A stretch of 64,000 bases of DNA from Pseudocercospora fijiensis CIRAD86 (taxonomy: Eukaryota; Ascomycota; Dothideomycetes; Mycosphaerellales; Mycosphaerellaceae). Numbering within the stretch: position 1 is the first letter of the stretch; every line of letters begins with the position of its first letter. Of the stretch, positions 31,780 to 60,111 are shown piece by piece. The DNA lies in NCBI RefSeq assembly GCF_000340215.1, contig NW_006921545.1:393630-457629 (forward strand). Direction: 5' to 3'. Both the position numbers and the translations under genes were made by a program. The notes below the pieces were generated by a model. The model saw only the letters and a program-made list of their open reading frames with translations. It was not told the origin of the DNA and searched no databases.

Positions 31780-32090
31780 TTAGACCCTATAGTAATTTAG
31801 TTTGCGAACTATAAAACGTATATAGTTTAGTTTCTAAGCGGTACCCCTCCGGCTTAGTTCTAGTTTAGTTTGCTACCCCGCTAGTCTAAACTAGTTTCTA
31901 AGAAAATCTAACTAAACTACGACGACCTCGGATCGAGCCTAGAGTACGATAGGGCCCTATATTGTATATACTATACGATTATACCTATATTCCGGGCTGT
32001 TTAGACGTATTCTAGCGTATTTAAGGTCGGGGTTTTATCCGTAGCTAGTACGTAGCTAGCAAACTAGTCCGTATATCGGTTTCTTAGTAA
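31780..32090. mobile_element. Truncated hAT MITE-type copy
   Basis: This stretch matches the first about 310 bp of the intact MITE at 59719-60111, with many RIP changes. It stops where the MITE would read CTTAGCAAACC and is followed at once by a second terminal repeat, TAGACCCCGTAG, at 32091. It is either an interrupted copy or part of a nested insertion. Confidence 0.7.
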
Positions 32091-32539
32091 TAGACCCCGT
32101 AGTAGTTCGGTTTCCGAACTACTAAACGTATATAGTTAAGTTTCTTAGCGGCGAACTAGCTCCCTAGTTCCGGTTTAGTTTTTTCGAACTATATAGATTC
32201 CTAGTTAAAACTAGAGACTATATTAGTTTTACTATAAGGATACTCTTATTCGACTACTAGCTACGATAGCCGGCTATAATAGTAACTAGGTTATATTTAC
32301 TACGCTCTATTGCCGTTGCTAGGGCGTAGTTACCGTTACTAAGGCGTAGTTACCGTTACTAGGGCGTAGTTACCGTAGTTGCGAAAGCTTACCTATATAA
32401 CGTTACGTAGGCGGCAATAATTAGGGCTTCGCGATATTCTTATACGTCTTAACTTCTTCCTCTATACCTATACCTATAATAACTACTATACGTCCCTGCC
32501 CCTTTCCTTATAGTAGTAAGAGAGAAGCGCGCCGCGCGC

Positions 32540-34010
32540 TAAATAGAAGATAGAACTAAAGACTGCGAGTTTATTTTGCCTAAGTATCTAGTAAAAAAGC
32601 GTAAGACTAAAGAGGAGTACTCTACGAAGAAGAATTCCGTACGAGACTACGAGAGAAAGGAGAAGATAGATAAGAATAAAAAATCTAAGGATAAAAGAAG
32701 AAAGGCGCGTAATAAGGCATTCTATCGATAACTAGCGCCTATAAAAAAAAGTAAAGGTTAGAATAAAAAGACAACGTAAGAGAAGGCTACGAGGAGGGAA
32801 GAATTACGGCTAGTTTTTAAGTGTAAGGTTCTAGTAGCGTAAGTTAATCTAGCTAACGGCCGTAGCTAGTAGCTATAGCCTATATATTTTTCTTTAAGAC
32901 GTTAACTAATAGTATTTAGACCTATAGTCGCTACCTCTATCGATACGACCTATAGTAACGGAGATATTTAGATAGCCGAGAACAACGATACTAGAGTTTA
33001 GGATGCCGCGAAAGAGCTTAACACTACGAATAAAGGGACTAATAAAAGCGAGGTAATACTATACGTCGATCTAGTAATAGATATAGTCTTAGGGCCTAAC
33101 GCTATAGACGATAAGCGCTAGAAGTAGATCGAGTATAGTTAAAGAGACGAGATACTAGTAAAGGGCTAAGGTATAAGTCCTATTAATCTAGAAAATTATA
33201 GTCCTAGCTACTACGAAAAGCTAGTAAGGATTGGAATCGAGACTAGTTGTCTTTATATCCTCGATATAGAGTAGAAATTTCTTTATTAGTATTAGAGCGA
33301 AGCCTTTCCGTCTATAAAGGCAAAGTAGCTTACGATTAATACGATCGGGGCTAGGTATCTAGGGACGGTAGAAGAGTTACTAAAGGAAGAAGGGGTATAG
33401 GTAATTATTCTATACTCGGTTTATATACCTAGCGTTCGTAGCTAGTAGATACTAATAGTTAAATAGAAAGCGTTTCTCGAGGGTAGAGTACTACTACTAT
33501 ATAAAATCTTTACTAAGGTAGAGAGGGCTTATATCCGGAATCTAAGTTACTAGTAGGATAGGTTAGCGTTAGAGTTCTCTAAATCTCTATATAAGCCTCT
33601 AAAAGATTACCTATTTTAGCGATACGGCTTTATCTCGACTACTCCGTAGATATCTAACGAAGCTCGAGCGCTCTTTAAGGTCTTTACTAAGAAGCGGAAG
33701 GAGTTCGAGGATTAGGATTAGTTAATAGAGCTATTAGTTAGTCTTAGGTTTCGTAGTTAGACTCGGCCTAAGTATTTACTTATCGAGTATCTTAGACCGA
33801 AAGAGGATAGATAAAGGCTAAAACCGAGCTTAGATTCGTTAGGTATAGTAGCTCGGTTCCGTTAGTAGGAGAGAGCCGCCGTATAGAAGGCAAAATTTAG
33901 GTAGTTAGGGTAGCTAGGAAGGAAATTCTAGTAGTTAGGCTAGCTAGGGTAGCTAGGAAAAAAAATCTAGTAGTTAGGTAGCTAGGAAACAAAAAAAAAA
34001 GGTAGCTAGC
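32540..34010 (+). pseudogene. Unknown frame upstream of the hAT transposase
   Basis: A lysine/arginine-rich stretch (around 32590-32790) is followed from about 33250 by one frame of about 240 codons broken only by TAG/TAA. It contains Q-I-S-N-E-A-R-A-L-F-K-V-F-T-K-K-R-K and ends in an L-G-Q-type repeat (TAGTTAGGGTAGCTAGG) near 33890-33990. I do not recognise the family. It could be an N-terminal part of the transposase or separate cargo. Confidence 0.45.
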
Positions 34011-34949
34011 TATTTACTACCTAGCTATTCCTAACGATACGATACTATAAAAGAAAGGGTGTTTCCCTATAGCTACTAGTATATATCTACTACTCCTAAG
34101 TCCTTACCTTACCGGACGAAACTTTAAAACATACCGACCGATATTATATATATACTAGGCGCTATACTAGGAAGGGTAATAACGAGACGATAGTCGAAAT
34201 AGTCTAGTATACGAGCGAGATTACGATAACGTCTAGAGGAGGTCGTATACTTACTTTCGAGCCTATAAAGTCCTAGACGACGATTAGGGCTAGATTTATC
34301 CTCTCCGAATCCTAGTAGTAGGAATTTATTATAGGGTACTACTACCTAGTCCTTACCTTTATAGAGTCTAAGTAGAAGGTTATTCGGAGATATAAGAATA
34401 TCGAGTATTAACCCGGAAATATTCGAAAAGACTAGCTATGCGTATCTTTAGAAACCCGAGTATATAGAGCAGTTTAATTAATAGGTCTATAAGATATAGT
34501 TCCCTTTATACTTACGTTCGAAGGAGTATAAACTCTAGAAGTACTCGATACGATAGGGTAGTAAGGAGCGAACGGATACGTTCTAGAAGTTCTTTATAGA
34601 GGGGGCATTATACCGTTATACGACTTCTCGAGTTGAAGGTTAACTAGTAATTGTCTATAACTTCTACGGTTTAATCTTAAAATATCCGAAACTAGGGGAT
34701 AGGAACTTATCGCCTACTAACTATCTCTATTCTAAACGGTATCGGGAATCTTAAAGAGAGAGGAGGGTTAATATAGATATAACGATCTAGAAAGAGGTAC
34801 GTTTTCTAAAATGCCGGCTATAGCTACCGGCTATAGCTACCGGCTACTTTAATTAACCGTAGAGATCTAGCTAATTATTATAGGCTACGCCTAAGGAAGC
34901 TCTAGGATTAAAGGCTACCGATTTCTCCCCTAAAGACTTAAAGTAACTA

Positions 34950-37150
34950 GCAAACGAAATACTAACGGTCTTCCGGAAGACTTCTGTAAAAGGGAGTCTA
35001 TATAGAAGATATACCTATATCCTATAAACTATCCCCCCTTATTTCTCGGCGTAATAACCTAGCGTATTATATTCGAAAAGAATAAAGAGGCTACGTTAGA
35101 CGATATTCGGGGGATCCTCCGTAATACTCGCCGAGTAGCTATTACTATCGATAGCTAGTTGAGCCGGACTATAAGAGCCTCCTTCCTCTCGATTATACTA
35201 TACTTTATTAATTCGGATTAGAAACTCTAGGAACTTATAATCGGATTCCCTAAAATTCTAGGCTCCTATACTAGTAAGGATATAGCTAAGCTTATCTATG
35301 CGATAATAGATAGGGTTAGCGTAATAACGAAACTAATCTCGATTACTACGGATAATACTAGTAATAATCGAATTTTATATAAGGCGTTATATATACAATT
35401 TACTTATATATATCTTTAAAATTACTAATTGTATCGATAGGGTCGAGCACGTAGAGGAGATTACAAGGTCTATAATCTAGCTTAGTATTTGGAATATTAA
35501 GCTCGCTACGATTCCGGATACGTACGATAATACGTACGATAATAACGATAAAGAGGAGCCTAGTAATGGCCCTAGCCCTATTAAATCGGAGCCGACGTCG
35601 TTGCTAGTTAAATCCCTGTAGAAATTTCCCTGCCTCGCTTGTGTAGTTCAAATCGCGATCCGAGCCCTCTTTAAGATACTTTAATTGTACTATTAAACGA
35701 CGACTAATAGAAGATCCTAAATAAGGATAAAGCAAAGTCGAAAGTCGAGAAACTCGTTATAGTAATACGACGGGAGGGTAGAGAGCCTCGCTCTCGTTTT
35801 ATATAAGGTATAACTTTTATCCGTAGCCGGCACCTATAGCCGGTAACCTAGTATAGTTCTAACTCCTTTTCTCTAGCTTCGCCGTCTAGTAATATATACG
35901 AACTCGAGCTTAAAGAGATATAACCGATTCGAGGCTATTTAAAAGAACCTAATCGAGCGCCCTAAAACTAATACCTAGAATATCGTATAGAATAAGCGAT
36001 AGTAAAAGCGGCCTCCTTAGCGCCTACTCCGTTTTACCTAAGACGTAAAGACCTAGTTCGATTCGACTTCCTATATAGTTACGAGGGAATATACTTTATA
36101 TACCGCTCTCGAGATCTATTAGAGTTCTAAAGGTATTAAGTAGCTCGGGCTTACTACCGCCGAGTAGCGATAAGTAGAGTATCTCGTCGATATTAGTAAG
36201 TATTACGCGAAGGTTACTACTACGATTAGAAGAACCTAAGGACCGACGATCTACCTTATCTTTACGTACTATAACTAGCTCTTTAATAAGCTCGACGAGA
36301 CCGTAGCTAAGCTAGCTAAGAAGAGCGTTCCCTAGAAAGTAGCTATAACGAAGGCTATAGATATCTCCTATACTAAGTTATATAAATATTATAGTGCTAC
36401 CTTTTAGTCGTTCGGGGATATCTATAGCGTTACGTACTTGCTTAACCCGGTAGAAAAGGATATATACTAGTAGAAGCCGGAATAGAAAGGGGACGAGAGA
36501 TAGCCTAAGTATTACTAGACTATTCTAGAAAAGATATTCTATAAGCGTCGGAAAGAAACTAGTCTTAATATAGCTCCTATAAAGAAAACGAAGGTTTAGA
36601 AGGCTCCGATATTATACCTATTTTATAGATAGGAAGTAGAGGTTAAAGAAGAAGCAACTACTAAAGTAAAGAAAGAAGAGTTTAATCTCTATCGCCGCGC
36701 GAATAAGTACTAAACGCGTAGGCTCGGAAAGAGGGCTAATAATCTCTAGATCTTACTAGTCTTCTAGACGAATTCAGAGACGATATTCTCGCTATATAGT
36801 AGCGGTTAGAGCCTAGGTTTCTAACGATAGCGTCCCTCGCTCGGGACGTCCTCGCTATACCGAGCGTAGGTATAGGCTATAAGAGGTCTTTTAGTATCGC
36901 TCGTTACTACGGCCGCTTTAATCGAATATACTCGCCTACTACCTTCGAATCTATTATAGTATTCTAATACTATCTCCTCTACTAGAGTCGCTAAGGTAGG
37001 ATACTAAAGATTATACTTAAAGGACTTAATCGAGGAATTAGAAAACCTTAAGATCGAAGGAACCTAGGAGCGCGAAGAGAATACGAAATTTAGTCTAAGC
37101 GAACTCCTTATTAGCGATAACGAATAGCGATAACGAAGAGGAGGAGGGCG
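34950..37150 (+). pseudogene. hAT transposase, RIP-degraded
   Basis: One frame carries the hAT signature in order. V-A-I-T-I-D-S-x-L-S-R lies at about 35141 (the D-x-W-T-S region, Asp codon at 35150). F-L-S-I-I-L-Y-F-I-N-S-D follows at about 35188. Then comes L-I-I-G-F-P-K-I-L-G-S-Y-T-S-K-D-I-A, followed by I-T-T-D-N-T-S-N-N with Asp at 35351. The C-terminal dimerisation domain reads L-A-R-D-V-L-A-I-P-S-V-G-I-G-Y-K-R-S-F-S at about 36840-36900. The K there is Glu in the family; GAG after T becomes AAG by RIP. Asp 35150, Asp 35351 and the dimerisation domain are in the same frame. Activity is lost here. The start is not resolved. Confidence 0.8.
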
Positions 37151-37680
37151 GAAATAGAAGGCGATACTAGGTCGAGAAGCGGAAATATATATAGGCTTAG
37201 AGTAGCTTTAAGGAGACGAAGCGTTTACGTAGAAGGTAATATAGCCGGTATATATAGCTAGAATATATCCCTAATATATTTTGAATTCCTAGGACCTAAA
37301 TAGACTAGTTACTATAGCAACCTAACCCGCTTACCTACGGACTATTTGTAATTCTCTATTCGCTCTTCCTCTTCTTCCCTTTCTCTATATTCTTAAAGAT
37401 AAATATACCTTAAGGATTCGGCTCTTCGAGCCTCCCTAAGCCGGCCGCCTCCCTTTCCTTAAGCTACTATCCTTTATACGAATCTAACAATAACCTACTA
37501 AGACGGTTTAATAGAAGACTATTTAATCTAGAAGGTAAGAAGTATAAATATCTCTTTACGATTATAGGCTTATTAATTTTCTAGGTCCTCGCGATATACC
37601 CTCGTCGCCTAAATGTATATAAGGATACCTTTAGAGCCTAAAGGGTAAGGATAAAGTAAGCTAAGTATAGGGAGACCGTA

Positions 37681-38214
37681 GCGAGAACGAGATATTAGAA
37701 GAGTAATACTCTCCGTAGTATATACGAAGGAAGGGGGTTCCTCGGAAAATAGTACTAAAAAATAAGAAGGCTTTAGCTAGATAGGAGAAGGCTAAAAAGA
37801 GTAGGCGGACGAAGGCTATCGTAAAGAAAAGTTATCTTTCTATTAAAAAAAAAGGGTATAAGGTAGGACTCGACGATAAAGAAGCGGCGCTTAAAACTAG
37901 GTACTATTACCCTTCGCTAAATCCGGCTATTCTAAAACAAAAGAGGGACCGAGCTTTTAATCTCTAAGACTCCCTTCTAGCGACTCGTCCGAGAAATTAT
38001 ATTAGATTTTCGGTCTAGTATACGATTTACGACTAAGGCAATTAGTACTCTGTAGGAAGCTACGGAAGCATTTCTCGTAACCGAGCTTAAGCTTTTAAAC
38101 CTCCTTACTATCTATACGAAGCGGGTTACTCTTTAAAATAAAGATATATAGTTTCTAGCTAAAATTCGGCGTCGGCTTAAAGCGGATTAATTAGAATTTG
38201 TATTTAGTCGTTAA
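37681..38214 (+). pseudogene. Histone H3-like gene 1 in the hAT element (intronless)
   Basis: A single frame runs from 37681 to TAA at 38212-38214 without indels. The histone core is plain, with stops where Gln codons are expected: L-G-T-I-T-L-R-x-I-R-L-F at about 37897, T-E-L-L-I-S-K-T-P-F-x-R-L-V-R-E-I at about 37949-38000, R-F-T-T-K-A-I-S-T-L-x-E-A-T-E-A-F-L-V at about 38023-38085, and K-R-V-T-L-x-N-K-D-I at about 38119-38150. These correspond to H3 alpha-N, alpha-1, loop 1 and alpha-2 to alpha-3. Relative to H3, two residues are inserted between alpha-N and the T-E-L-L-I segment. Loop 1 has no insertion, unlike many centromeric H3s. The tail is basic; an A-R-T-R tetrad sits at 37681, but the start is uncertain. 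It lies on the transposase strand. Confidence 0.82.
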
Positions 38215-38219
38215 ATTAA

Positions 38220-39820
38220 CCTAGGAGGAGGCCTATTTTCGTATCCCTTTACCGGCTATAGATACCGGCTATATTGCTAATTTTATCTCTACGCCGTCCC
38301 TAAATCTAAGGTACGAAGTAGAAACCTAGCGCTCTATATTTACCCGGCTATTATAGAGACGAGCTATATTTAGATTAGTTTCTTCGTATATTGCGACCTA
38401 GCGGATAGTAAGCGAAAGGGCGATAGAACGTTTATAATACGTCTCTATTTAGACCTAAAATACAAAGGTACTAAGGAGCCCTAGTATCCTAACTATAAGG
38501 AGATTCTTTAGTATTAGTACTTTAATCCTCTATACTACGAAGTAGATAGTAAGCCTACTAGAGAGAAACTTTAACGAGAGATTCTCTATAATATATAGCG
38601 CTATTATATAGTAATAGATACGTACTAAGTCCGGTAACTCGAAGAAGAATTAAGATAGCGTATTAGCGACCGAGGAGGAGATCGATAGTATACTAGTAGA
38701 GTCGAGGCCTTATAAGCGAAGTACGAGATAATATAGGCTCTTAGTTATTTAGAGTAACGTACTATATAAATAACTAGGCATACTACTCTTTTTTACTTAC
38801 GACCTATATCCTAGGATACTCTTCTCGTACTTTTTATACTCTTTTCTAATACCTTACCTATAATCGCTCCGCGATAACCGAGTAAATATAAGCTATAGGA
38901 TTTCCGCTCGGTACCTTAGCCCTCGAGATATAGCGGAGTTAATTCTCTATAACACGTAGCGCTATTATATAGCGATAGATACGTACTAAGTCCGGTAACT
39001 CGAAAAAGAATTAAGATAGCGACCGAGGAGGAGATTAATAGTATATTAGTAGAGTCGAGGTCTTATAAGCGAAGTACGAGATAATATAGGCTCTTAGTCG
39101 TATAGAGTACCGTACTATATAAATAACTAGGCGTACTACTCTTATTTACTTACTACCACTATCCTAGGATACTCTTCTCGTACTTTTTATACTCTTTTCT
39201 AATACCTTACCTATAAGCGCTCCGCGACAACCGAGTAAATATAAGCTAAAGGGTTTCCGCTCGGTATCTTAGCCTCCGAGATAGGGCGGAGTTGAATTTA
39301 GAGCGATAGCCGGCACTCGTAGCCGGTATATAGAGACGGTAGTAGGCCTTTTCCTACTAAATAACTAGCTTATTTAGTATAGCCTACCTAATATTTCTTA
39401 TATTTCCTAGTAATAGGCCTAGGTTACTTATAAGATTACTATAGCTAGTAAGGGAATTACTATTAAATATCTATACTATAGTAGGATAATATTATTACGC
39501 CGACTATTTATTAAAAGGAGTCTTTCGCCTATTACTATACCGGCTATATATACCGGCTATATTTCAAAGTTTGCCGTACCTGCCTTTTTTAGCCGTACTT
39601 GCCTTCTTTCCTTGCTCTAACGTTACTATAGTATAGGCTTACGCGACGCTTACTCTATTACCTAGCGATACCGCGATACTACCTCTCTCGCTATATTTAA
39701 CCTTCGTATCGATACCTGTACCTCTACGCTCTATATCTACTACCTCCGTAATACCCTCGCTCCGCGCGCGCCTTCGTATACCTTCGTAACGTACTTTTTT
39801 CCTTAATTCGACGACTTTTA
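38220..39820. other. Region between the two H3-like genes
   Basis: Apart from the 361-bp duplication, a frame of about 80 codons at 38330-38575 (R-T-F-I-I-R-L-Y-L-D-L-K-Y-K-G-T-K-E-P) looks coding-like but is unassigned. Clusters of the GCCGGCTA motif lie near 38255, 39308 and 39537. Confidence 0.4.
38581..39296. repeat. 361-bp tandem duplication inside the hAT element
   Basis: The stretch starting ATTCTCTATAATATATAGCG (38581) is repeated starting ATTCTCTATAACACGTAGCG (38942). The second copy has a short internal deletion near 39019. The copies differ mainly by RIP-type transitions, so the duplication predates or accompanies mutation. No coding function was recognised. Confidence 0.8.
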
Positions 39821-39870
39821 TAATACCGAGTCTACTTAACTAAGTTACGACGCTTTGTAAGAAGGGACCT

Positions 39871-40008
39871 ACTACTTCTACGGGTCGTAATAAGACTAGA
39901 AGTAGTAGAACGAGTATAGTATATTAACGTAAAAAGGCTACTACTTCTACGGGTCGTAATAAGACCGGAAGTAGTAGAACGAGTATAGTATATTAACGTA
40001 AAAAGGCT
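39871..40008 (+). repeat. 69-bp in-frame tandem repeat in the H3-like gene 2 tail
   Basis: Two 69-bp units (39871-39939 and 39940-40008), each starting ACTACTTCTACGGGTCGTAA, encode 23 residues rich in Thr, Ser, Arg and Lys (T-S-T-G-R-N-K-T-x-S-S-R-T-S). The period is a multiple of three, so the tail length can vary without breaking the frame. Confidence 0.85.
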
Positions 40009-40159
40009 ACTACTACTACCGCTAGCTCTAGTACTAGAAAGGGCGTCGCGAGTAAGGCTCTACGTAAGACGACGGCGGGTAAGGCTCTACGTAAGACGAC
40101 GACTAGCGCTTCTACTACTAGTAGTAATAATCGTATAAAGCGTCGATAGTGCCTAGGAA

Positions 40160-40238
40160 GTAAGTCTTATTTGTAGCCGGTAGCGTAGCCGGTAGCGTAG
40201 CCGGCATTCTTACTATCTTTTTACTAATCCTTCTTTAG
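40160..40238 (+). other. Intron 1 of H3-like gene 2
   Basis: Donor GTAAGT at 40160, an ACTAAT branch-type site and acceptor TTCTTTAG ending at 40238. Splicing joins a final A to CC to give Thr-Val-Ala-Leu, the expected H3 T-V-A-L. The intron contains three GCCGG-TAGCGT motif units. Confidence 0.7.
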
Positions 40239-40780
40239 CCGTAGCCCTTCGTAAGATTCGGAAGTATTAGAAGAACTATAATCGCCTACTCTATAGAGCT
40301 CCTTTCCGACGACTTATTCGCAAAATTGCCTAGTATTGTATACTAAACCTTCGCTTCTAAGCCTCCGTACTAGACGCCCTTTAAGAGGCTTTAGAAGCCT
40401 ACCTAGTTCGTATCTTTAAATATTTATTTCTCTTCTACCTCTTTTCGAACTATACTAATACTATTTTAGCGGTTAACCTTATAGCTATCTACGCGAAGCG
40501 TATTACGATTATAGATAAGGATTTTAAAGCCCTCGATTAGATCCTTAAAGGCTAGAATGTCTATATTCGAGATAGTGCTAGGTAGGATAGATATTCTAGT
40601 AGGAAGGATGTTCGTAGTATCGTCTATAAGCGTTTCTATATACAAAAGAAGCCGCTATTATACGGCGCTATATACCGCGCTCTAAATAGGCTCTAAGTAT
40701 ATATATATAGTATAGTATACTTTATTAGCCGTACGGAATAGAAGTCTTCGAAGATCCCGTTAGTACTAAGGAGTAAAAAG

Positions 40781-40812
40781 GCCGGCTACGCTACCGGCTA
40801 CGCTACTAGGTC
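40781..40812 (+). repeat. 12-bp GCCGGCTACGCT repeat in the H3-like gene 2 C-terminus
   Basis: Units of GCCGGCTACGCT, read in frame as A-G-Y-A, form the C-terminal extension. The right-edge copy has five units (63847-63900 region). The same unit, in either orientation, occurs in intron 1 (about 40174-40206), near 34812, 35824, 38255, 39308, 41570 and 63033, and as a shorter form in the MITE near 59990. It is therefore not only a coding repeat. Confidence 0.75.
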
Positions 40813-40855
40813 TTTTAAAGAACTAAAAGAAGGTAGACATTCTAGTTAATTTATA

Positions 40856-41393
40856 TTAGTTTAGATTTTTTAAAAAAGAAAATAGGGAAAAATAAGGACG
40901 GTTAAAGAGCCTAATACTTATAGTTATAGGCATTATCCCTATTTTCTAGACTATATTATATACCTGCCTTCGTAACTCTACCTAATACTCCCTCTAAATA
41001 CCCTTATACTCTACCTACTAGAAACTCAACTAGGTACCTAGACCTGTAGCTACCTCTATATCTTTTACTATCTTCTATAGGTTAAAGGACTCCTCTATAG
41101 CAGCCTCTACCTCCTTATATAATACGAAGTTACTACCTGCCCTACCCTTTATATCTCCTAAATAACTAAGAGTTCTAAGGAACGAACTAGTATTCGGCCT
41201 TAGTATAGCGAGTAACTAGTAGAACGTTATATAGAGCTGCTTTATAGCTCTTTTATATACTATACTAATACCGAGGGAGGAGCTATCCTAGTACTTAACA
41301 TTAGAGAATAGTCTAGTAGGAAAGTGTTAGAACTTCTTAAGGAGGGCTTCTAGGGAAATCGATAAGTTCTACCTAGATCTAGATAATAATATT
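40856..41393 (-). pseudogene. Unknown cargo gene convergent to H3-like gene 2, RIP-dead copy
   Basis: The minus-strand frame is homologous to the better-preserved gene at 63275-63814 and ends 6 bp from the stop of H3-like gene 2. The shared region includes L-S-Y-L-G-D-I-K and A-G-S-N-F-V-L-Y-K-E-V-E-A-A. Its ATG is now ATA and several codons are TAG. See the right-edge copy for a description of the protein. Confidence 0.6.
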
Positions 41394-41569
41394 CTACCGA
41401 GTAGTTATAGTATTAAATAGCGAGCGAAAGGATAAAATTTGTATCTAATAAGTACAGTTTCTAAACTAACCTGTAATAGCTTGTATGTGTATATACTTTT
41501 GATTAGTTAGTACCCTTGGCTAATTGTCTGTAGATTTAGGGTTGTGTAAGTACCTTCCTATAACTGAAA

Positions 41570-41776
41570 AATGCCGGCTACGCTGCCGGCTACACTCTTG
41601 TGTCTTATAAAGGGCTTGCTTCGAGTTACGTGTGTATTCTTATACTTCTTAGAAACCGATAAATTCTATAGTTCGAACTAGCTACTCCTATAGTTACTTA
41701 GCAAACTAACCTGAACTGAACTAGATCTTCGGCTTAGCAAACTAAACCAAACCAACCCGAACTACTACGGGGTCTA
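41570..41776. repeat. Right subterminal region and terminal inverted repeat of the hAT element
   Basis: The last 207 bp contain a GCCGGCTACGCT pair at 41573, then AACCAAAC/AACTAACC-type runs, and end CCGAACTACTACGGGGTCTA. The same order, inverted and less mutated, opens the copy at 62843. Confidence 0.75.
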
Positions 41777-42985
41777 CTCGGGAACGTATATAACGTCCGG
41801 AGTCGTAGGCGGAATTCCCTAAAACCGGACGAGGATTATGCCGGATTTCGCGTCCTTTATCCTTTTACCGTCTACTAGAGTAACGTATCCGGTTTCTTTC
41901 TTATAGCACGTAAAGTAGTTCTTATCGTCAGATATATATCTTATATATCCGGAGTCGAGAATCTAATCTTTATTCGAAAGTAGAGCTATCGAGTCGATAG
42001 CTATCTAAGCCGCGATCTTCGATTCCTCCCTAGTTTCTTCTTTTACTTTCCTATTCTTTAGGTCCTCTTTATACTTCCTATAGTCCCTCTTTAAGTGCCT
42101 ATCCTTTTAGCAATAGTAATAAGTCTTTCTTTTAAACTTATTCGCTATATTAATCTTCGTCTTTCTATTATTAAAAGCCTTATCTTTCGACGCCCTTCGC
42201 GTCGAATCCGTAGTATATTAGGCTACTACTTCTTTTCCTTTTAAAGTAGTAATCGTAGATCTAACGTCCTAAAGTCGTTAAACTGGTTTCTCGTAGGAAA
42301 GAGTAGATAAACCGGCCGCCTTTAAGGCAAATATAGTAGACGAATACTCTTCTTCTAAAGACGATAAAAGGACTGCCTTCTTAGGGGCCTCTAACGGAGA
42401 TTTATTTTTATCCGCGGCCTTTATCTCCGTTTGGATCTACGTGGGGGTCGAAGCCGTAGTATCGATATCCTTAAGGGCTTTAAAGTAATAGAAATAGGAG
42501 AGTAGCGTCGGAACCCGTTCCCCTACCTATACCTCGCTTACTTTCTTTATATTATCGATTACCACTCTAGTCGTATATAGTCCTAGGAGGTATATACGCT
42601 TATCCCTAGCCGTAGACTTGATAAACGTAATAGCTTTTATATCTTCTTGTTTAGCTTCTCTTAGCTTAGTCGTATCTCGTCTTATAGATTCCGGTATATT
42701 ATTTATACACTTCTAAAGGCCTTATTCGGATAAATAGTCCTAAATTAGATCGATCTAGATAGTATAGTTCTCGGTAGTAAGTTACGGAACTCCCTTTACC
42801 GCTCCGATAGTCGTCTTAGTAGTAGATGTCTTTATCGTTTTATACCTCGACTCGTAGTAGTTATATTATAGTAATTTTTAGTTTTTTTAGTCCGTATTAG
42901 TCGGTTCATTCTACTTATAGACTAGTACCTCTAGTAGAGCAATAGCCGTTGTCTTATTATCGTTCGAAGTTAGTCGCTTTTTTAT
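41777..42985 (-). pseudogene. Copia gag/protease fragment, copy C
   Basis: Colinear with about 1380-2575 of the first Copia element, including the zinc knuckle (near 42075-42130). Homology stops at the hAT tip on the left and at about 42985 on the right. The integrase that should continue leftward is absent, so this is not simply the other half of the Copia copy interrupted at 31780. Confidence 0.8.
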
Positions 42986-59718: not shown

Positions 59719-60111
59719 TAGACCCCGTAGTGGTTCGGTTTGCAAACCACAGAACGTATATAGTTTGGTTTCTTGGCGGTACCCCTCCGGTTTGGTTCCG
59801 GTTTGGTTTTTTACCCCGCTAGTCTAAGCCGGTTTCTAAGGAAATCCGACTAAACTGCGACGATATGCGACGACATGCGACGACCTCGGATCGGGTCCGG
59901 GGGCCCTATATTGTATACGCTACACGGTTGCATCTGTGTTTCAGGCTGTTTAGACGTGTTCCGGCGTATTTTAGGTCGGGTTTTTGTCTATAGCCGGCAC
60001 GTAGCCGGCAAACCGGTCCGTATACCGGTTTCTTAGCAAACCAAACTAAACCAAACCAGAATTTCGGCTTGGCAAACCAAACCAACCCAACCCGGACTAC
60101 TGCGGGGTCTA
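59719..60111. mobile_element. Intact hAT MITE (393 bp) with 8-bp target duplication
   Basis: Ends TAGACCCCGTAGTGGTTCGG and CCGGACTACTGCGGGGTCTA are inverted repeats. GTTACGAA flanks it on both sides (59711-59718 and 60112-60119), a perfect 8-bp target duplication as made by hAT transposases. Its ends match those of the 9.7-kb element, so it is a non-autonomous derivative. It retains many CA and TG dinucleotides within an otherwise saturated Gypsy relic, so it arrived after most RIP there. Confidence 0.9.

Follow-up and report, generated by a model that had tools for sequence, protein, structure and literature searches.

Why does a DNA transposon of the fungus Pseudocercospora fijiensis carry two different genes for histone H3-like proteins, and did these genes serve the element or only travel with it? 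Here, we address this question for an element in a 64,000-nucleotide stretch of the genome of strain CIRAD86 (contig NW_006921545.1; the whole stretch that was analysed is called the window below), which an initial annotation had singled out from the letters alone. We consider it fairly probable that the window holds a hAT-type copy, very likely of a family described in 2019, which was inactivated in a manner resembling repeat-induced point mutation (RIP) and whose two H3-like genes, here called H3-A and H3-B, likely worked before that inactivation. The ends of the element, the two H3 frames and the stops are observed directly, as is the fact that three subfamilies each have the two H3 genes in one and the same order.

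Structure of the element and the published P. fijiensis family

The features of the element and of its surroundings, in coordinates of the window, are as follows.

32083..32090, no strand: left flank CTTAGTAA, imperfect partner of CTCGGGAA at 41777-41784
32091-41776: hAT-type element, window copy, 9,686 bp
32091..32113, plus strand: left terminal inverted repeat TAGACCCCGTAGTAGTTCGGTTT, 23 nt
32543..33960, plus strand: lysine-rich frame, stop-interrupted, no Pfam match
34400..36967, plus strand: hAT-type transposase region, in several frames
about 35351-35368, plus strand: TTDNTSNN block, in the transposase region
36746-36967, plus strand: dimerisation-like stretch (PF05699, below cut-off)
37411..37793, plus strand: possible N-terminal extension ahead of H3-A, in frame with H3-A in three subfamily-2 loci
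37794..37850, plus strand: H3-A tail-like stretch KKSRRTKAIVKKSY (compare ARTKQTARKS)
37879..38169, plus strand: H3-A histone fold (Pfam Histone)
40003..40159, plus strand: H3-B tail exon TRKGVASKALRKTTAGKALRK (compare ARKSTGGKAPRK)
40160..40238, plus strand: H3-B predicted intron 1, 79 nt, GTAAGT...CTAATCC...TTTAG
40239..40421, plus strand: H3-B exon 2, beginning of the histone fold
40422..40469, plus strand: H3-B 48-nt segment in helix alpha 2, predicted intron 2, CTAATAC...TTTTAG
40470..40550, plus strand: H3-B exon 3, remaining part of the histone fold
same frame onward to about 40680, plus strand: possible C-terminal extension of H3-B
41754..41776, minus strand: right terminal inverted repeat, 23 nt
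59719..60111, no strand: related MITE, 393 bp, the first letters of its ends common with the element

The inverted ends of the window element are 96% complementary over their 23 nt, that is, they are the short terminal repeats expected of hAT transposons, and the copies on C24, C18 and C22 have ends near-identical to the repeat at 32091-32113. The 8-bp target duplication typical of hAT elements is complete (8/8) around the MITE, where it reads GTTACGAA, and in two of three other copies with both ends read, with 3/8 in the third; the flanks of the window copy are identical at 5/8 positions, or at 7/8 when scored as purine or pyrimidine. These data bear out the earlier claim that the element shares its inverted ends with a MITE that has an 8-bp duplication. 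Inside the element, CA and TG occur at 0.08 and 0.14 of expectation, compared to 1.18 and 1.15 at 11-21 kb, a depletion that we read as the signature of RIP. Scans of the window with Rfam (gathering thresholds) and for tRNAs (bacterial settings) returned no matches.

The initial annotation had also assigned the element a hAT transposase with a conserved D-N-T-S-N-N block and a C-terminal dimerisation domain. The block could be located in the transposase region; the dimerisation domain appears only below threshold, with PF05699 scoring 17.2 bits in the window copy and 16.4 bits at the corresponding position of another subfamily, both under the 21.4-bit cut-off. The other transposase pieces (four in one search, three in another) gave no hAT match against Pfam, and a protein-database search with a single-frame reading of the transposase yielded no match at E 1e-4 among 7994 scored candidates. 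Dhillon et al., in the available part of their paper, did not find the dimerisation domain, whereas the subthreshold PF05699 match reported here falls at one place in two subfamilies.

The observation of a hAT element with H3-like genes is sound, and the biology of H3-carrying hATs is already known: the supposition that no case had been published does not hold, since a P. fijiensis family was described in 2019 (PMC6710886) and an H3-bearing hAT from Pyrenophora in 2013 (PMC3538342). As far as the available text of Dhillon et al. goes, the P. fijiensis family comprises 471 H3-bearing repeats, 133 of them full-length copies of 9.5-9.9 kb with 20-bp ends and 8-bp duplications, and its members have either a single H3-like gene or a pair of them, in which the second contains a 16-residue insertion; all copies are RIP-inactivated with a CA-to-TA bias, the host H3 lies on scaffold 6, and exon junctions without introns led to the proposal that one H3 transcript was captured (PMC6710886). 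To the extent of that text, the family and the window element are alike in length, number of H3-like genes, 16-residue insertion, hAT assignment, 8-bp duplication and RIP bias, and they presumably come from the same genome, although the assembly searched here consists of 30 contigs and the published one of 56 scaffolds. On our side, we find a 9,686-bp element with two H3-like genes, a 16-residue break in the H3-B alignment and a CA ratio of 0.08; the gene for the host H3 maps to contig C6. The window element is therefore very likely a member of this family, to which the present work adds the predicted introns of H3-B, two H3 lineages, the apparent constraint on H3-A and seven kept contact residues.

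Two H3-like genes and their copies in the genome

The two frames described as H3-like in the initial annotation both exceed the Pfam Histone cut-off of 26.4 bits, H3-A with 67.1 bits (E 2.2e-18) and H3-B, read from 40239, with 50.2 bits (E 3.9e-13). The best solved chains are H3.3 and H3 for H3-A and H3 chains for H3-B. In the window copy, a frame shift separates the tail of H3-A from its fold; four S1 copies (see below) that were examined are free of it, and a tail reading RRTKTIAKKS is common to many H3-A copies. The tail of H3-B reads TRKGVASKA-RKTTAGKA-RK, with GKAPRKTTAGKTPRK in subfamily 2. The coding status of the extension ahead of H3-A is doubtful: stops are present in it in the three subfamily-2 loci, and it has no codon-position bias. 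Two protein-database searches with H3-A gave 37 matches among 744 candidates and 43 among 67, and no Pyrenophora protein is named among the matches listed for them, where long names are shortened; in the first, where the query included the extension, the 37 matches each span 59% of the query or less. An AlphaFold model of H3-A shows, at low confidence, the helix pattern expected of H3 (helices at 41-51, 60-73, 81-111 and 116-135), and with a mean pLDDT of 59.6 and a pTM of 0.33 it is too poor to add weight.

A histone search of the window's own genome (73.9 Mb) returned 772 candidate places, of which 150 were scored. The initial annotation had proposed looking for the histone frames beside this transposase elsewhere, ideally in an un-RIPped copy. 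Within this genome the frames do recur with the transposase, the end of which aligns upstream of H3-A in 28/28 element loci (L010-L038 minus the CENP-A locus L034); a stop-free copy of the element was sought and is absent from the 150 scored places of the 772 candidates, the only two stop-free places being the host H3 (C6) and the host CENP-A (C5). Contigs C1 and C2 hold 27 of the scored H3-A places, and 26 of these 27 are followed, on the same strand, by an H3-B mark at a distance of 1.85-2.6 kb. By our own grouping, the copies fall into three subfamilies—S1, which includes the window, S2 (L047-L052) and S3 (L053-L056)—and in each of them both H3 genes are present in the same order. The window copy alone would be insufficient against the reading that the histone frames have nothing to do with the element and came to lie between two hAT ends by chance; given the pairing of both genes at similar spacing in 26/27 places, the transposase end upstream of H3-A in every element locus and the recurrence in three subfamilies, that reading is scarcely credible. 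The same three observations, together with the match of H3-B marks at 318 places, uphold the earlier view that the H3 frames belong to the element.

In a FastTree phylogeny of 22 element rows (11 H3-A and 11 H3-B, chosen from the copies) and ten others, with P0027 and one further row left out of the alignment (A2), H3-A and H3-B fall into two distinct clades (0.996 and 0.994), and the host H3 groups weakly (0.68) with H3-B and a Geranomyces H3. The separate clades disfavour an origin of both genes from a single H3 that was duplicated within the element, in a tree that is short and weak at its deeper nodes. We also considered whether either gene encodes a CENP-A, the loop 1 of which is longer than that of H3. 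Both H3-A and H3-B have a loop of H3 length, whereas the loop of the host CENP-A at L034 is longer, and a CENP-A identity was rejected for this reason. Seven residues that we take to be among the nucleosome-contact residues of H3 (R69, R72, R83, K115, R116, T118 and D123) are the majority state of H3-A as well as H3-B in each of the three subfamilies, in a tally where some S2 loci are the same copy counted twice. R63 is replaced in 5/6 gene-subfamily groups, and D106 and C110 in 6/6; H113 is Tyr throughout, which is uninformative because RIP of a His codon would give Tyr.

Intron-like segments in H3-B and the route of capture

According to the published proposal of passive transduplication, a single host H3 transcript was captured, travelled as passive cargo in a single copy or in two, was killed by RIP and never served the element; we regard this as possible but somewhat doubtful. 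It draws on the exon junctions without introns and the RIP of all copies described in the available text of Dhillon et al. (PMC6710886), and it fits H3-A, which reads unbroken through the place of the host H3's second intron. It fits H3-B poorly, as this gene contains two intron-like segments with splice signals. The first begins with a GTAAGT donor in 18/18 copies read (the H3-B copy counts omit L050, the 3' part of which runs into another sequence), closes with a branch-like CTA-T followed by TTAG, and was placed by eye 3 nt from the host's second H3 intron site; its donor pattern is found at 286 places in the genome. Because its length varies between 69 and 103 nt and cannot be divided by 3 in 12/18 copies, this segment is unlikely to be coding.

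The second segment, of 48 nt, might instead be a true 16-residue insertion in the protein, with no intron involved, as an insertion is what Dhillon et al. describe in the text available (PMC6710886). In agreement with this alternative, the segment is in frame, and its length is constant in the 16/18 copies in which it is set apart by the tblastn span. The 318 genome places that match its 5' end are divided: 223 have AT, not GT, as an insertion would allow and as RIP would leave of a GT, and 95 have GT (GTATGT or GTATAT), which speaks for a splice donor. Further evidence against an insertion is that (i) the segment is pyrimidine-rich, with CTAATACTATTTTAG at its end in the window copy, and CTAAT plus TTTTAG are matched in 17/18 copies; (ii) the HMMER match to H3 resumes beyond it, weakly (10.7 bits), with 17 query residues facing 1 chain residue; and (iii) it shows 0/48 purine/pyrimidine changes across the three subfamilies, compared to 25/181 in the adjoining exon (p=0.003, uncorrected). 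Since third positions are included in these 48, more than the protein must have been conserved in the segment. We thus find an insertion quite improbable and read both H3-B segments, from their sequence, as predicted introns.

These intron-like segments argue against the capture of H3-B as a transcript, and at most H3-A could then derive from an intronless transcript in the way published. Where Dhillon et al., in the part of the paper available, have an insertion of 48 nt and one intronless transcript, H3-B looks intron-bearing here and the two genes fall into separate clades, which also counts against a single passive capture. The published reading needs a second look in this respect, as transcript capture probably does not apply to one of the two histone genes.

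Apparent constraint before RIP and possible roles of the histones

RIP produces transitions only, and transversions therefore report on the history of the copies before RIP, which makes the question of histone function checkable even in RIP-ruined copies. Tail and fold of H3-A have 16/371 purine/pyrimidine-variable sites, distributed as 6/1/9 over the codon positions, a borderline bias (one-sided p 0.05, uncorrected). The stretch upstream of H3-A has 33/370 (13/11/9), and the H3-A fold by itself, with 14/305, has fewer variable sites than this stretch (p=0.033, uncorrected). Between S1 and S3, the H3-A changes show no bias (3/2/3). A comparison of S1 and S2 in bins, on 9 of 25 S1 copies and 6 S2 copies, gave 16/379 changes for the H3-A bins and 34/394 for the upstream stretch, 4/300 at the transposase end (36685-36984) compared to 25/300 in the preceding bins (36385-36684), and 87/297 in the sequence 3' of H3-A, which no longer aligns. 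All the tests of constraint, those on H3-B below included, are small and uncorrected. Gene conversion between subfamilies could also have caused the low variation of H3-A. We suggest that H3-A was probably, if on weak support, under purifying selection while on the element, and so probably made, with the same reservation, an H3 variant that could be built into nucleosomes.

The lower variation of H3-A relative to its upstream stretch and the persistence of both genes in three subfamilies speak against a cargo that never served the element. H3-B offers that account more room: neither its tail exon (14/124 variable sites, 4/5/5) nor its exon 2 (8/7/10 for the 25 sites above, about three times the variation of the H3-A fold) has a codon-position bias; exon 3 with the extension has 23/193 (5/5/13). 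The low variation of H3-A and the kept contact residues fit the chromatin role proposed in the initial annotation, that is, the marking or opening of chromatin, the steering of insertion or an escape from silencing, and the lack of bias in the tail and exon 2 of H3-B does not help it. In its full form—a hAT lineage that owns two H3 variants as working parts, with nucleosomes that aid expression, insertion or escape from silencing—we consider this role rather unlikely. If the element's histones did work, nucleosome identity would be serving a transposon as weapon or disguise.

Our preferred history, in which both genes likely worked before inactivation, would run as follows. The element would have moved by cut-and-paste and taken up cellular H3 DNA, with H3-B probably acquired as a gene that had introns and H3-A as one that lacked them in the histone region; both genes would have been carried through several rounds of amplification, and RIP would afterwards have destroyed the copies.

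Similar elements are known from other Dothideomycetes. Manning et al. reported an H3L-carrying hAT in Pyrenophora tritici-repentis and asked whether it changes chromatin (PMC3538342). As far as the available text goes, it resembles the window element in its hAT transposase, an additional frame without assigned function, a tail-altered H3-like gene that is neither H3 nor CenH3, and inverted ends, and differs from it in its length of 5.6 kb, its one H3L gene and its 26 copies, which are almost identical, mostly open and accompanied by ESTs. In the part of Dhillon et al. available, no nucleotide similarity was found between the Pyrenophora and Mycosphaerellaceae elements (PMC6710886). Had the element histones worked, H3-carrying hATs in distant Dothideomycetes would represent a recurrent solution and not accidents. 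The Stagonospora nodorum repeat R25 of Hane and Oliver (PMC3017866) likewise combines RIP damage, histone H3 and weak similarity to DNA transposons; in the text available it differs in having been reclassified as presumably of endogenous gene origin, and that text describes no structure of an element for it. Among the literature matches listed, there was no further histone-bearing transposon, which is no proof of absence. Transduplication by plant DNA transposons, as partly available sources describe it, is alike in that cellular gene DNA is multiplied between transposon ends; the P. fijiensis element differs in holding two separate histone genes whose order is kept across subfamilies.

Short motif and spacer within the element

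Throughout the hAT-type element (window 32091-41776), we find a short motif, CCGGCTA or its reverse complement TAGCCGG, at 23 places (window 32267-41586), compared to 9 in the remaining 54.3 kb. These copies occur for the most part in pairs, spaced 12-13 nt apart, and several of them lie within intron-like spots, both in the transposase region (about 34797-34882 and 35808-35877) and in H3-B, the second of the two histone H3-like genes (40160-40238). The motifs are possibly binding sites or spreading minisatellites.

A tandem duplication of 353 bp (window 38581-39298) lies between the two histone genes, H3-A and H3-B. Across element copies, the distances between the H3-A and H3-B marks form groups around 1866, 2220, and 2590 nt, a spread compatible with one, two, or three 353-bp units per copy.

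Predicted introns and further frames

Between subfamilies, the predicted 48-nt intron of H3-B (window 40422-40469; copies L039-L056) shows no purine/pyrimidine changes (0/48), whereas the adjoining coding exon is less conserved; the predicted intron 1 of the same gene also shows few changes (2/66 in its alignable part).

Two further frames were observed in the window copy. The frame at 37411-37793, which precedes H3-A and in subfamily 2 runs on into it, lacks codon-position bias and could represent a fusion protein, a leader, or non-coding sequence. The other, at 32543-33960, is rich in lysine and has no Pfam match; parts of it are also recognizable in one copy each of subfamilies S2 (L063) and S3 (L064).

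Base composition of the window

Blocks with a GC content of about 0.5-0.56 and normal CA/TG (window 11-21 kb, 22-25.5 kb, and 48-51 kb) are interleaved with blocks resembling the products of repeat-induced point mutation, with GC near 0.37.

Other H3-like proteins

The protein search with H3-A also returned an intact H3-like protein of 279 residues with a long, acidic C-terminal extension (P0027; Pestalotiopsis sp. 9143b, KJ359_001739), which might represent another mobile H3 gene. Also among the matches was a record named histone-like (P0026) from Manila clam xenomavirus, which is another mobile or viral element bearing an H3-like gene.
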